DNA of 64,000 nt from Vagococcus jeotgali. Lineage in GTDB: Bacteria > Bacillota > Bacilli > Lactobacillales > Vagococcaceae. The notes under the pieces are model-generated. The model saw only the letters and a list, made by a program, of their open reading frames with translations, made no database searches and had not been told where the DNA came from. This document shows positions 21,591 to 42,054 of the stretch, one piece after another; the stretch's first letter is position 1, and every line of letters starts with the position of its first letter. The stretch spans positions 1,550,001 through 1,614,000 of the forward strand of contig NZ_CP142146.1 of NCBI RefSeq assembly GCF_035918315.1, given 5' to 3'. Made by a program: the position numbers and the translations under genes.

Positions 21591-21864
21591 TTATGCCACT
21601 GAAATGACTGTCCCATTCACTAAGATCTCACTAATCTCCTCTAAAGGAATATAATCATACTGAACACTTACTTCCTCACGCTCATCTGAGTAAATATTTA
21701 TAACATTATCATGAGATAAAATATCCAGCTCTTGTCCACTTGTTAATTTCAATTTGATATTTAAAGGCTCTTCTTTTGCGTTATCAGTTTTTGAAACCAA
21801 GGTTAAGTTTAACCCATTATGATACAAATCATTGGGGTACTTAACTAACAAATGCAGGAGCCCA
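21591..21864 (-). pseudogene. Anti-sigma-like C-terminal remnant
   Basis: Read from about 21864 (DGLLHLLVKYPNDLYHNGLNLTLV) to the stop at 21591 it looks like the C-terminal beta-rich domain of a secreted or membrane anti-sigma-type protein (charged strands, IPLEEISEILVNGTVISVA end). The upstream frame (21845-22171) runs into the same reading if one base near 21865 is restored. I take both as pieces of a decayed operon. A free-standing 86-residue protein starting at 21851 cannot be excluded. Confidence 0.5.
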
Positions 21865-22171
21865 TCTTTAAAGGTGTCTTAATCCAGTTGGTCCCTTCTT
21901 GGATTAATTCTTGCCAAGGAGGACTCACTCGCTCTGTTTTTTCTTCCAACCCACTTGTTAAACGACTCAGCTCAAACCCTTTTGGATTTTTCCAAAGCTT
22001 AATAAAGACATCATTAATTAACTCCTCGATGTGCTGAATATGTCCCCCTATATTTTGTGTTAAATATTTTGAAGCCACTGCCCACATTAAGGTTGAATAT
22101 TCTGTCATTAAAGAATCTAGAGCTTCTTCATCTTGATTTAGCAATGCAATGAGATACTCCTCATCTGTCAT
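21845..22171 (-). pseudogene. Sigma-70-like N-terminal fragment fused to an unrelated, frameshifted tail
   Basis: Residues 1-65 read like region 1.2-2 of a small sigma factor (DEEYLIALLNQDEEALDSLMTEY and ELINDVFIKLWKNPKGFE). The expected region 2.3-4 is missing. Instead the frame continues into EEKTERVSPPWQELIQEGTNWIKTPLK and then stops after SCIC. The tail fits better as the beginning of the remnant at 21591-21864. An internal deletion joining a sigma gene to its downstream anti-sigma gene, followed by a one-base loss, explains this. The ribosome binding site is still intact. Confidence 0.55.
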
Positions 22172-37221: not shown

Positions 37222-38391
37222 CTAATTATTCTCAACTTTCTTTAATAAGCTAAGCAATTTCTGTTGAGGTTTTGGAAATGGATAATCTTTAAATTTTTCT
37301 GGATAGACCCATTCTTCTCTTGGCTTTAATTGATACGATGACAATCCATCTACTCTACCTTCTAAAGCCAAAATATGCCACTTTCTATGACTAAAGACAT
37401 GTGTCACTTCCCCGTGATGATACTCCTTCATCTTAATATTAGGGTAATCTGTTAGCATAGCTGAAAACAAATAAACCTCTGACTCATCTGCCACTTGGTC
37501 AAATAAACTAAGCTCCTGATGATCAGCAAACTTCTCTTGGTGCTTTAGTTGCTTATAAGTCAGCTCATCTACCTCTACTAGAGGAAACGTCCACATATTA
37601 GCTAATAAGCCATCTGACGGGCGTTTTGTAAGTAAGTAAGCACCTAACTCATTTTGCAACACGATAGCCACATAATAAAGAGGAACTGGTTTTTCTTTTT
37701 TCTTTTTCACTGGGAGTTGATCCACTTGATTAGTTTTTAATGCTAAACAATATTCTTTAACTGGACAAGTCTTACAACTAGGTTTTTTAGGTGTGCAGAT
37801 TCTAGCACCTAAGTCCATTAAAGCTTGATTAAAATCTCCTGGTTCATCACGGGAAATCGTTTTTCTGACTTTCTCTTCAAATACCCGTCTTGTTTTTGGT
37901 AGCATAATATCATCATCAATACCAAACAACCGACTATAAACACGCATCACATTACCATCCACCGCAGGCTCAGCTAAATTAAATGCAATACTTGAAATGG
38001 CACCTCCTGTATAAGGACCAATCCCTTTTAAAGATAAAATATCTTGCGGGTTATTAGGCATGTGACCGTCAAACCGCTCCATGATGTCTTGGGCGGCTGC
38101 TTGCATATTTTTCACACGAGAATAATAACCAAGACCTTCCCACGCTTTTAATAGTTTATCTTCTGGGGCATTTGCTAAACCTTTGATTGTTGGAAATTCA
38201 CTTAAAAAATGATTGAAATAAGGAATAACTGTTACAACTTGAGTTTGTTGTAGCATAATTTCAGACACCCACACACGATATGGATCGGTATTTTTTCGCC
38301 AAGGTAAATCACGCTTTTCGCTATGATACCAAGCCAGTAGATCCTCCCTAAATTTTTCAGTTTTCTGATTGCTCCATGTTTCTTGTTTCAC
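37222..38391 (-). CDS. mutY: A/G-specific adenine DNA glycosylase MutY
   Basis: Removes adenine mispaired with 8-oxoguanine. The 389-residue protein has the helix-hairpin-helix LKGIGPYTGGAISSIAF, the catalytic aspartate in PAVDGNVMRV, the 4Fe-4S motif with spacing C-6-C-2-C-5-C (from CTPKKPSC), and a C-terminal NUDIX-like domain for 8-oxoG recognition. The start codon overlaps the end of recX by one base, so the two are coupled. Confidence 0.96.
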   Translation of the reverse strand: MKQETWSNQKTEKFREDLLAWYHSEKRDLPWRKNTDPYRVWVSEIMLQQTQVVTVIPYFNHFLSEFPTIKGLANAPEDKLLKAWEGLGYYSRVKNMQAAAQDIMERFDGHMPNNPQDILSLKGIGPYTGGAISSIAFNLAEPAVDGNVMRVYSRLFGIDDDIMLPKTRRVFEEKVRKTISRDEPGDFNQALMDLGARICTPKKPSCKTCPVKEYCLALKTNQVDQLPVKKKKEKPVPLYYVAIVLQNELGAYLLTKRPSDGLLANMWTFPLVEVDELTYKQLKHQEKFADHQELSLFDQVADESEVYLFSAMLTDYPNIKMKEYHHGEVTHVFSHRKWHILALEGRVDGLSSYQLKPREEWVYPEKFKDYPFPKPQQKLLSLLKKVENN

Positions 38392-39188
38392 TAGTCTAAC
38401 TCCATCTCTTTTTCATCAATATAGCGGTTAATATCATCCATTGAAAAGCCTTTTTGATATAGACTTTGTTTGATTTTTTGCTTGCGCTTATAAGGCTCTA
38501 AACGTTCATGACGACGCCATAACTTATCTCCTTGAGCCTTTAGCTTCTCATATTCTTCATCCTCATCTACCTCGGTAATCACCTCATCAATAACACGAGA
38601 AATAACCTCTGATGAAAATCCTTTGCCGTATAAGAACTGATTTAGTTTGTTTTTTGTTTCTTGTTGTGATTTTTGACGATTCTTTCGCATGTTTTTTTCA
38701 GCTAGATTTAATGCTAGTGGGTACTGGGAGTCTTCATCAAATAAAGAAAGAGCTTCTTGTATCTCCTCTTGTTTGATTCCTTTTTTAAATAAAAACTCCT
38801 TTACCCCACTAGGTCCTTTATCAGTAGTACGCATTGCTGTTCTGACATAGCTTTTAGCAAATTCAGCATCATTTAGTAATTGTAATTCTCTTAATTTATC
38901 AATCACAAGATATATCTGTTCCTCACTAACCTCATGCTTTTTTAGATGGTCTTTAATCTCTTTTTCACTACGAAGTTGATAACTTAAGTAAGCTAAAGCC
39001 TTTTGGTAACCAATATCAAAGTCAGCCTCTCTTTCAATCTGCTCAAGTAAAGACTTACTTAACTCTTGACCTTTTAGTAAACGATGCTTCACTAGAGAAT
39101 CCTCAGACACTCGAATCACCATACCACTTTCAGTCTTTATCTGATACCCACCACGCTTTAATTTCTTAGTACTCTTTATAATTTCCAA
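38391..39188 (-). CDS. recX: Regulatory protein RecX
   Basis: Modulates RecA filaments. The 265-residue protein is long as in lactic acid bacteria, with repeated three-helix modules (LAYLSYQLRSEKEIKDHLKKHE, GFSSEVISRVIDEVI, YQKGFSMDDINRYIDE). The start is TTG at 39188, supported by AGGAGG seven to eight bases before it; no in-frame ATG lies nearby. It is coupled to mutY. Confidence 0.92.
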   Translation of the reverse strand: MEIIKSTKKLKRGGYQIKTESGMVIRVSEDSLVKHRLLKGQELSKSLLEQIEREADFDIGYQKALAYLSYQLRSEKEIKDHLKKHEVSEEQIYLVIDKLRELQLLNDAEFAKSYVRTAMRTTDKGPSGVKEFLFKKGIKQEEIQEALSLFDEDSQYPLALNLAEKNMRKNRQKSQQETKNKLNQFLYGKGFSSEVISRVIDEVITEVDEDEEYEKLKAQGDKLWRRHERLEPYKRKQKIKQSLYQKGFSMDDINRYIDEKEMELD

Positions 39189-39240: not shown

Positions 39241-40011
39241 TCAATACTCCTGTTCATTAAAATACTCTGAAATAGTAAGACTAGGATCTTTCACCTTGGC
39301 ATAAATAAAATTGATAGCCTTATATTGGCATTTGTTAAGTAATTCAATATCCACATTTTTGTAAACACCATAGATCAATTTTAAATGCTGACTGATATAC
39401 TCACCAGCCCACTGACTTTTCAAAGTTTGACTAACATAAGGGATATTAGCTATAAGACTAGGATAAAAGTAAGAAAAGTAGTAGCGAATACTCATCTCAA
39501 CTTGTCTATCATAAATCTTTTTATCAAAGGAATCCTCCACATCTAAGTGATTTGAAAACGATAGAATAGTCTTTTTACCAGGCATTTTTTTCAAGGCATC
39601 TAGGTGAGTGACATTAAAAAAATTGGCTTCTTGTTTGATACTACCAGTAGGGGAAATTAGGACACAATCCTTTGCTACATAGGGTGTTTTATAGGTTTGG
39701 GTACCATCATAATTAATCATCGTTATTCTGACTTTTTCAAAAATAAAATCATGGTTTCTCTCATAATCATTGATTAATTCTTTTGTTGTCATAGTCGTCA
39801 CCACAGGTAAATGATTGGCTGAAATAATTAAGGTATTGTGCTTTTTAGACATATCTGATACATCATGAATCAAGATTGTGCTAGTTGTAATATACGGATT
39901 GGATTTTTCAATAGAGCAAAAAAGACATTTTTCATATAATTCTTCCAATTTAATCGTCCCACCATGAACTAACTCTCTGTACCAATCCATTTTTTCTTTT
40001 TCTAAATCCAT
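39241..40011 (-). CDS. ComK-like protein (putative competence transcription factor family)
   Basis: A 256-residue cytoplasmic protein. The middle (about residues 115-175) shows a pattern like Bacillus ComK: ISPTGSIKQEANFFNVTHLD, then TILSFSNHLDVEDSFDKKIYDRQV, comparable to the FPT....W/HVHV.. and TFSN....S...F..QV blocks of ComK. The rest has no feature I recognise, and it is longer than ComK (192 residues). Its 5' end is divergent from a ComX/SigH-like sigma gene, with 186 bases between. The assignment is by eye and uncertain. Confidence 0.5.
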   Translation of the reverse strand: MDLEKEKMDWYRELVHGGTIKLEELYEKCLFCSIEKSNPYITTSTILIHDVSDMSKKHNTLIISANHLPVVTTMTTKELINDYERNHDFIFEKVRITMINYDGTQTYKTPYVAKDCVLISPTGSIKQEANFFNVTHLDALKKMPGKKTILSFSNHLDVEDSFDKKIYDRQVEMSIRYYFSYFYPSLIANIPYVSQTLKSQWAGEYISQHLKLIYGVYKNVDIELLNKCQYKAINFIYAKVKDPSLTISEYFNEQEY

Positions 40012-40197
40012 TTATAACACTCCATTCTTTTTTATCATACGTTTATTTTAACAATTTTCAAACAAAATTGTAAACGTTTTCTGCACAAAACGAATGATTT
40101 TGGTATTAATCTTTATTTTTTCGACTTTTACGATAAAGAAATTTTCTTTTATACTCTTTATGACTAGTCAAACCAACTACGGAGAGGACAATTTACT

Positions 40198-40710
40198 ATG
40201 GAAGAAGACATTTTCACAACCTATCACCCACTTATCTTAGGTGCTCTAAAAAAATGTCACATTTATCACCACCATCCAGACTTTGATGACTATATTCAAG
40301 CAGCACGGATTGAACTTTTGTTACTACACCGAGAATATGATGCCAAAAAACACCTTAACCAACCACCTTTTGCTCCCTATGCTTACCAAAAAATCTATTG
40401 GAGAACTTTAGATTTAATCAGAAAAGAAACAAAACGACTTGATAACCATCCACTTGATGATTTGATATTAGACGTCTATGAAGATACTAAAGAAGACACC
40501 TGCCTACATAAATTTGTAGAAACGAGTGATACCTACACACTCCTATGCCAAGAGCTGACACCTTTTGAAACCAAAGTGCTAGAAGATAGACTATTTAAAC
40601 AACTTTCTGTGACACAACTATCAAAAAAATATGACCTCTCACGCCAAACGATTTATAGAGTCATGGAGAGAATTCAAAAAAAATATCGAAAAATCGAAAA
40701 AAACCTGTGA
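40198..40710 (+). CDS. Small sigma-70-type factor (ComX/SigH-like)
   Basis: A 170-residue alternative sigma factor. Region 2 reads FDDYIQAARIELLLLHREYD with YAYQKIYWRTLDLIRKETKR. Region 4 at the C-terminus has a helix-turn-helix (LSVTQLSKKYDLSRQTIYRVMERIQKKY). The size and layout suit ComX/SigH competence-type factors of Lactobacillales. It is followed by DUF1659, DUF2922 and GH25 genes on the same strand, which may be its targets or operon partners. GGAGAGG precedes ATG 40198. Confidence 0.8.
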   Translation: MEEDIFTTYHPLILGALKKCHIYHHHPDFDDYIQAARIELLLLHREYDAKKHLNQPPFAPYAYQKIYWRTLDLIRKETKRLDNHPLDDLILDVYEDTKEDTCLHKFVETSDTYTLLCQELTPFETKVLEDRLFKQLSVTQLSKKYDLSRQTIYRVMERIQKKYRKIEKNL

Positions 40711-40743
40711 CACTTTGACGATTTCTTTCGTTTATAGGAGTGT

Positions 40744-40757
40744 AAGATGCGCATCTT
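40744..40757. promoter_or_regulatory. Perfect 14-bp palindrome upstream of the DUF1659 gene
   Basis: AAGATGCGCATCTT lies between the sigma gene and the DUF1659 gene, 28 bases before the latter's start. Its flanks TGT and TCA extend weakly. It could be an operator or a small RNA hairpin; no T tract follows, so it is not a terminator. Confidence 0.45.
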
Positions 40758-40784
40758 TCAAAAATAAAAAAGGACGTGACTATT

Positions 40785-40994
40785 ATGGAAAAAATTTCAG
40801 ACAGCAAAAAAACAGAATTCACTTATCAAGCAATCGGGACAGCTAATCCAAGAAAACAAAGCCTGACAAACTTACGACCAGATACAGAAGACAAAGATAT
40901 TCTAGCCCTATCAGATATTTTTCAAACACTAGCACCAAGTGAGGAACCGATGGAAAAACTAGCGATTATCAACACTCACCACTACTCAATCTAA
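40785..40994 (+). CDS. DUF1659 family small protein
   Basis: A 69-residue protein resembling DUF1659 (TNLRPDTEDKDILALSDIFQTLAPSEEPMEKLAIINTHH). Such genes commonly precede DUF2922 genes in Firmicutes; no function is known. The frame opens with GTG at 40776, but ATG 40785 with AAGGA ten bases upstream is better. It is 23 bases before the DUF2922 gene. Confidence 0.75.
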   Translation: MEKISDSKKTEFTYQAIGTANPRKQSLTNLRPDTEDKDILALSDIFQTLAPSEEPMEKLAIINTHHYSI

Positions 40995-41017
40995 ATAAAA
41001 ACTAGGAGGAATTTACT

Positions 41018-41230
41018 ATGAAAAAACTAACATTAACATTTTTAAATGAACAGGACAAACGTGTCAATATGATTCCAAAAGTTGTTAACCAAGACTTAGA
41101 AGGACCAGTTGTTAAGGAAGCCATGGAGATGATCTGTACGTTAGATATTTTCGAAAAAAATGGCGAAAAACTTTACGTGGAACCTCATACAGCCTTTTAT
41201 ACAGAAACAATTATCACACCATTAGTCTAA
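41018..41230 (+). CDS. DUF2922 family small protein
   Basis: A 70-residue protein opening MKKLTLTFLNEQDKRVNMIPK, with the VVKEAMEMICTLDIF block typical of DUF2922. A strong AGGAGG lies seven bases before ATG 41018. It is the usual partner of DUF1659; the function is unknown. Here the pair is inserted between a sigma factor and a lysozyme gene. Confidence 0.82.
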   Translation: MKKLTLTFLNEQDKRVNMIPKVVNQDLEGPVVKEAMEMICTLDIFEKNGEKLYVEPHTAFYTETIITPLV

Positions 41231-41253
41231 ATACTAAAAAGGAGGACTGACTT

Positions 41254-42054
41254 ATGTTATCAGTTATTGATTTATCCAATCACCAAAAAGGTATTAGACT
41301 AGAATCACTCATATGTGACGCTTTTATCTTTAAAGCAACAGAAGGAACATACTTTATTGATAGTGCTTGTGATGTCTTTGTACAAGAAGCCAAAGAACTA
41401 AATAAGCCGTACGGTGTTTATCACTTTTTAGATCAAAGTGACGTCAAAGAACAAGCTCACTTTTTCCTAGATCATATTAAAGGCTATATCGGTGAGGCCT
41501 TACTTGTTCTAGATTATGAGGGATACGGCAAACAAGGTGCTAAAAAAGCTAAAGAATTTTTAGATATCATCTACGAAGAAACAGGTGTTAGACCTCTCAT
41601 TTATATGAATGAAAGTGACGCCAATGGTGACGACTGGTCAGAGGTTGTTAGAGGTGATTATGACTTATGGGTTGCTAAGTACTCTAAACAAGAACCACAT
41701 ACCCCTCAGTGGCTAGATATCGCCATGTGGCAGTACACAGACACACCACTTGATCATAGTTATTTTTACGGTGACTCTACTGCCTGGTATGCTTATGCAA
41801 GATCTATAAAAGAAGATAACAAACATAAAGAAAACTATCACACAAAAGGAAAACGATTTAAAGCATTGAAAGATTTGATCCTAAAACTTGATGAGACATG
41901 GAAAGTCAACACCGGCATGACATTTTCCAAAAACACTATATTTGATATTGAGCAAATATGTCACACCAAAACAACAACGCATGCTCGTATACTGTATAAT
42001 CATACTCCGGTATTTGTTACACTTCATAAAGATTCTGTTGCACAAGTAAATTAA
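41254..42054 (+). CDS. GH25 lysozyme-like muramidase
   Basis: A 266-residue glycosyl hydrolase family 25 protein. Residues 1-190 form the catalytic barrel with DLSNHQKG at the start (catalytic-site Asp), FKATEG, LDYEGYG (DxE motif), VAKYSKQEPH and MWQYTDT. The C-terminal about 75 residues form a small SH3-like or binding domain (ARILYNHTPVFVTLHKDSVAQVN). There is no signal peptide, so release would need a holin or lysis. GGAGG precedes ATG 41254. It is the last gene of the plus-strand set starting with the sigma factor. Confidence 0.88.
   Translation: MLSVIDLSNHQKGIRLESLICDAFIFKATEGTYFIDSACDVFVQEAKELNKPYGVYHFLDQSDVKEQAHFFLDHIKGYIGEALLVLDYEGYGKQGAKKAKEFLDIIYEETGVRPLIYMNESDANGDDWSEVVRGDYDLWVAKYSKQEPHTPQWLDIAMWQYTDTPLDHSYFYGDSTAWYAYARSIKEDNKHKENYHTKGKRFKALKDLILKLDETWKVNTGMTFSKNTIFDIEQICHTKTTTHARILYNHTPVFVTLHKDSVAQVN

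Follow-up and report, generated by a model that had tools for sequence, protein, structure and literature searches.

A Vagococcus locus pairing a putative ComK-family protein and a SigS-type sigma factor with SroA/SroB-like genes and an exchangeable lysis-type gene

A five-gene cassette at positions 39241-42054 of the window, the 64,000-nucleotide stretch of Vagococcus jeotgali DNA analyzed here (contig positions 1550001-1614000 of a complete 2.02 Mb genome), raises the question of what a ComK-like protein and an alternative sigma factor control when they are encoded back to back, with a lysozyme gene at the end of the set. The preliminary description had taken the two for competence master regulators of different bacterial groups, and had proposed either a competence-linked lysis module or a decayed prophage or stress module. 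All five open reading frames are open at the positions and strands first described. The 256 aa ComK-family (ComK2-like) protein is encoded on the minus strand (39241..40011). Divergent from it, the gene for a SigS-type sigma factor of 170 aa (40198..40710, plus strand) does head a compact plus-strand set, which comprises a small DUF1659/SroA-like protein (40785..40994, alternative start 40776), a DUF2922/SroB-like protein of 70 aa (41018..41230; PF11148, 1.6e-17) and a 266 aa GH25 muramidase of the phage-endolysin type (41254..42054; PF01183, 7.1e-28; phrog_291 endolysin, 7.7e-41).

In each of the 17 relatives searched with phmmer, which include Vagococcus and other Lactobacillales, the ComK-like gene and the sigma gene are adjacent. 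In the same relatives DUF2922 is found in 16, DUF1659 in 15 at the same position and GH25 in 10, with no GH25 found by phmmer in the fetched stretch of the other seven. The genes recX (38391-39188) and mutY (37222-38391), already remarked on as neighbors, adjoin the cassette here and in 13/17 relatives. Because the ComK-like/sigma pair and its partners recur in this way, the gene arrangement is not due to chance.

Whether the 256-residue protein is truly related to ComK cannot be read from the protein itself, which by itself has no match in Pfam or NCBIfam; the proposed relationship stands by way of its orthologues. These were found in 18 of the 60 genomes searched and diverge fast, with 17-28% identity to the window protein. 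When the rows of the orthologue alignment are scanned singly, 13/18 match PF06338 (ComK), the best with 1.5e-6 and 28.5 bits against a cut-off of 22.3. Profile-profile comparison with hhalign aligns the orthologues to true ComK proteins with 97% probability (P ~1e-11), compared with less than 1% for unrelated profiles used as negative controls. As judged from these alignments, the protein is a diverged ComK homologue whose resemblance is real but remote and whose membership in the family passes through its relatives.

Structure prediction adds a second resemblance. The best of five AlphaFold2 models, and the sole confident one (pLDDT 79, pTM 0.78), is matched by Foldseek to LytTR DNA-binding domains with a probability of 0.97 and an E-value of 0.046. 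With VIA-align the top six matches are all LytTR domains (Z 5.1-6.1, the next match being at 2.8), among them those of S. pneumoniae ComE and S. aureus AgrA. No ComK structure is among the Foldseek matches from the PDB. The model thus suggests a LytTR-like fold and a DNA-binding function for the ComK-like protein. If the likeness holds for true ComK, competence regulators believed to be unrelated would share one fold.

The sigma factor has Pfam sigma domains that score just below their cut-offs and matches the NCBIfam sigma70-ECF model with 48.9 bits (cut-off 42.9; 5.5e-13). In a maximum-likelihood tree, SigH/ComX-type factors form one clade with support of 98/92, which includes the S. aureus SigH-like gene and a separate SigH-like gene of the V. 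jeotgali genome itself (at ~269,200). The window sigma falls outside this clade and groups with the other sigma factors of the module (98/95). The earlier label of ComX-like therefore fails, and an assignment to ComX/SigH was rejected: what the window sigma shares with competence sigmas is being a small alternative sigma-70 factor of a Gram-positive coccus, whereas its clade and its -10 element differ. As the sigma does not belong to the ComX/SigH type, the locus does not pair two competence master regulators but places a ComK paralogue next to a SigS-type sigma. Both the window sigma and SigS lie outside SigH, but in separate supported groups. Elsewhere in the window, at 21591-22171 on the minus strand, a short open reading frame with a partial Sigma70 region 2 (108 aa) is followed by one of 86 aa; the two resemble an ECF sigma gene that has been truncated and its partner.

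The BotR model is weakly matched by five of the module sigmas. Sigma factors of the clostridial TcdR/BotR/UviA group are small and activate a product along with a holin-like protein. The likeness lies in a small sigma with holin-like partners; unlike these systems, the Vagococcus cassette has no toxin or bacteriocin gene, and ComK and DUF1659/DUF2922 are not known from them.

A candidate target of the sigma factor lies at the end of its own gene. The DUF1659-DUF2922-GH25 operon is preceded by a conserved promoter, GTAACACTTT-N12-CGTTA, which in the window reads ACACTTT-N12-CGTTTATA (40710..40736, plus strand). Between the sigma stop codon and DUF1659 the relatives share ACAYTTT (or ACAAAA)-N12-CGTTA with the 12-base spacing fixed. 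Its own operon carries the single exact match in the V. jeotgali genome. With one mismatch allowed, genome-wide counts equal those of the reversed pattern, and therefore no further regulon targets can be named. A strict form, ACA-N15-17-CGTT, precedes the DUF1659-DUF2922 pair in 24 of 57 loci, most of which belong to other genera. Shuffled sequences give 2.0 and the reverse strand gives none. The strict form also occurs where the sigma gene is not adjacent (14/26 loci). A related-looking element, TTTCGATATAT, is present at staphylococcal sroA. We consider it likely that this promoter is read by the cassette sigma. In one relative the promoter occurs exactly at another site too, after which no clear gene follows.

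Further elements lie between the divergent genes and behind the operon promoter, all given here on the plus strand. A -10-like element of the sigma gene, TATACT (40150..40155), is conserved in position across the genus. Between it and the sigma start codon lies a palindrome, TGACTAGTCA (40161..40170), and another, AAGATGCGCATCTT (40744..40757), lies just downstream of the operon promoter. At both sites the place of the palindrome is constant, in most relatives for the first, while the sequence depends on the lineage, with cores such as TCATGA, GCGCGC, GTCGAC and TTGGCCAA flanked by TAAG and CTTA (window and loci L298-L354). The palindrome after the operon promoter folds no better than shuffles as an RNA hairpin. 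One idea is that the variable palindromes are bound by a regulator that itself diverges quickly, for instance the ComK-like protein. ComK boxes (AAAAN5TTTT) show no enrichment in the regions separating the divergent genes (present in 3/18, with 2.6 expected). A possible cre-like (CcpA) site, TTGTAAACGTTTTCT (40068..40082), belongs to the strict cre matches found in 2/18 intergenic regions (0.1 expected), those of the window and one relative only.

We compared the cassette with the S. aureus sigS locus, which was located through published primers (PMC2585143). The sigS start primer matched one genome with a single mismatch, and eight further sigS/SACOL1828 primers matched the S. aureus locus exactly, one of them after its engineered restriction site had been reverted to the wild-type letters given in the same paper. 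SACOL1828, the gene directly behind sigS, is a ComK by Pfam (6.2e-9, 36.2 bits, cut-off 22.3); it had earlier been tried as a candidate anti-sigma factor, with no effect seen. As S. aureus carries ComK1 and ComK2 (PMC10182052) and SA0882 is its first-known ComK (PMC3486894), SACOL1828 is almost certainly ComK2. Eight of eight Staphylococcus genomes have exactly two ComK genes, and the second adjoins a SigS-type sigma in 7/8 loci read. In the literature examined, ComK goes unmentioned in the SigS papers, as does sigS in the ComK2 paper; the exception is one paper in which a sigS mutant was tested for comK induction and showed no difference.

The small proteins extend this parallel. SroAB is a direct SigS target (PMC13192611), and the staphylococcal SroA locus encodes one DUF1659 and one DUF2922 protein. 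The window DUF1659 protein matches Pfam weakly (0.039), as it does the NCBIfam model for SroA, a SigS-regulated protein (0.0068, far under the equivalog cut-off). DUF1659 and DUF2922 correspond to SroA and SroB. The pair stands here behind the conserved ECF-like promoter, which makes it a candidate for control by the sigma factor. A homology of DUF1659 and DUF2922 to each other was rejected (hhalign 4.6%), and the structure model of DUF2922 is of low confidence (pLDDT 63). The closest known system to the Vagococcus cassette is that of S. aureus SigS, with which it shares a SigS-type sigma adjoining a ComK paralogue and a DUF1659-DUF2922 pair, which in Vagococcus is a likely sigma target. The two differ in arrangement: in Staphylococcus the ComK gene follows sigS in tandem and sroAB lies elsewhere with no lysis gene after it, whereas in Vagococcus the ComK-like gene is divergent from the sigma and everything is in one locus with the GH25 gene.

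The association of ComK with such sigma factors recurs across Bacilli. Of 40 distant Bacilli loci for which the sigma score was the only criterion of choice, 25 carry a ComK-family gene at most ~3 kb away, with the two genes divergent, in tandem or convergent, against a chance expectation of ~0.15 estimated from one to two ComK genes per genome. No convincing ComK was found near SigH genes. DUF2922 is present in 180/295 Lactobacillales genomes. In the 57 DUF2922 loci that we read, mostly one per genus, DUF1659 directly precedes DUF2922 in 45; a module-type sigma is present in 31 and a divergent ComK in 17. Bacillaceae have sets of DUF1659, DUF2922 and YvrJ, in which a small coil-containing membrane protein likewise comes after the same pair; unlike in the single Vagococcus locus, the ComK gene often lies at another place and the sigma gene does not always adjoin the set. 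Two other gene neighborhoods were noted. In some Staphylococcaceae and a neighboring family, an sbcD-like nuclease gene, as read from the sequence, follows DUF1659-DUF2922. Genome G028 (5.7 Mb, 10 DUF2922 matches) has two DUF1659-DUF2922 pairs with a GH25 gene between them in one stretch, which may be multiplied copies or a mixed assembly.

The gene behind DUF2922 is the exchangeable part of the cassette. We defined the next gene as an open reading frame of at least 60 aa on the same strand starting within 250 bases of DUF2922; this yields 43 of the 57 loci, a few of them probably spurious. In 22/43 Lactobacillales loci this gene is of a lysis type (10 membrane-coil proteins, five GH25, five amidases of two kinds and two glucosaminidases), and in about half it is unrelated. 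The lysis theme of the preliminary description recurs across the order. Representatives searched against Pfam and PHROGs match endolysin families down to 4e-57 for the amidase, 3.5e-49 for GH25 and 5e-31 for the glucosaminidase. The membrane-coil proteins (64-109 aa, one hydrophobic stretch and a coil) match only phrog_1009, a family of unknown function, and none was found in phage records. In other Bacilli, the gene after the pair encodes a membrane-coil protein of the YvrJ type; Pfam confirms one case, and the others were recognized by reading the sequence.

The window GH25 reaches 98.6 bits (cut-off 27), has the invariant catalytic residues D6, D87 and E89 and begins directly with the catalytic domain. 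As first described, it has no signal peptide, and no holin is recognizable beside its gene. It shares 35% identity with Enterococcus phage endolysins across 250 residues, and as much as 43% with others over shorter stretches. Outside the module, its closest relatives are endolysins of prophages, encoded after small open reading frames that occupy the usual holin position. To the GH25 that takes this place in another family, its relationship is remote. Alone of the cassette genes, GH25 looks recruited.

How these observations bear on the function of the locus depends on which of several readings is adopted. A competence module, in which the sigma would be a ComX/SigH orthologue turning on DNA uptake together with ComK and the lysozyme would be a fratricide enzyme, could draw on the ComK homology described above and on the influence of S. 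aureus ComK2 on the competence programme (PMC10182052, PMC12491500). However, the SigH/ComX clade excludes the window sigma and contains another gene of the same genome. Upstream of comGA we read AGCGAATA, a ComX-box-like element, and not CGTTA. Because the operon motif has its one exact match in the genome at its own operon and the comGA element differs, the proposed competence link is not supported, and we regard this reading as very unlikely. A decayed prophage, with a phage sigma-like factor and an endolysin left on the chromosome, would fit the closeness of the GH25 to phage endolysins outside the genus, but appears extremely unlikely: all cassette genes are intact, their chromosomal place is constant throughout the genus, with recX/mutY adjoining in 13/17 relatives, and phage structural genes were not recognized beside the locus, so that this reading too is left unsupported; DUF2922, moreover, has no match in 50,697 phage records.

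A SigS-type stress module without lysis is a more serious contender, albeit one that we consider rather unlikely. Here SroA/SroB-like regulators would serve stress or metabolism, and the wall enzyme would act in repair or turnover or be a passenger. In S. aureus, SigS and SroA do influence both metabolism and resistance to stress (PMC13192611, PMC2585143), and no lysis gene stands behind sroB in the Staphylococcus loci read. Against this, different families have, at one and the same place, wall hydrolases of several sorts (amidases and GH25 enzymes of two kinds each and a glucosaminidase) or small membrane proteins. That wall-cutting genes were independently recruited to this place is what chiefly supports an output in lysis or wall remodeling. 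We favor, with a probability of roughly 60%, a ComK-family/SigS-type switch that drives SroAB-like proteins and an exchangeable lysis effector and is the Vagococcus form of S. aureus SigS/ComK2/SroAB. Several of the results given above weigh against this reading: the GH25 has neither a signal peptide nor a recognizable holin nearby, seven of the 17 relatives yielded no GH25, the Staphylococcus loci read have no lysis gene behind sroB, roughly half of the next genes are unrelated, the membrane-coil proteins match only a family of unknown function, and ComK boxes are not enriched.

According to this ComK/SigS-type reading, the putative DNA-binding protein and the sigma factor would form a chromosomal regulatory and effector cassette in which the ComK-like protein controls the sigma gene. 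Probably switched on by stress or nutrient limitation, the sigma would recognize the promoter where the sigma gene ends (-35 ~GTAACAC, -10 CGTTA) and drive the SroA/SroB-like pair, then the lysis effector. The SroA/SroB-like proteins would probably feed back on sigma activity. The effector would here be a cytoplasmic phage-type GH25 muramidase and, in other genera, an amidase, a glucosaminidase or a membrane-coil protein. Cells may thereby weaken or open their wall and release their contents or remodel their envelope. A broader and more tentative proposal, to which we give somewhat less than even odds, is that a programmed-lysis or content-release cassette is widespread in Lactobacillales, with the ComK-family protein and SigS-type sigma firing the SroAB-like pair and an exchangeable endolysin or holin-like gene, and that S. 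aureus SigS/ComK2 is a branch that lost the local lysis gene.

Our analysis links three things that have been studied separately: S. aureus SigS, its neighbor, which is a ComK homologue, and ComK2, whose role is debated. It suggests a little-noticed and widespread lysis or wall-remodeling switch, related to the SigS system, across lactic acid bacteria, in which the promoter defined here and the associated wall-cutting genes make the role of the SigS branch testable in harmless species.
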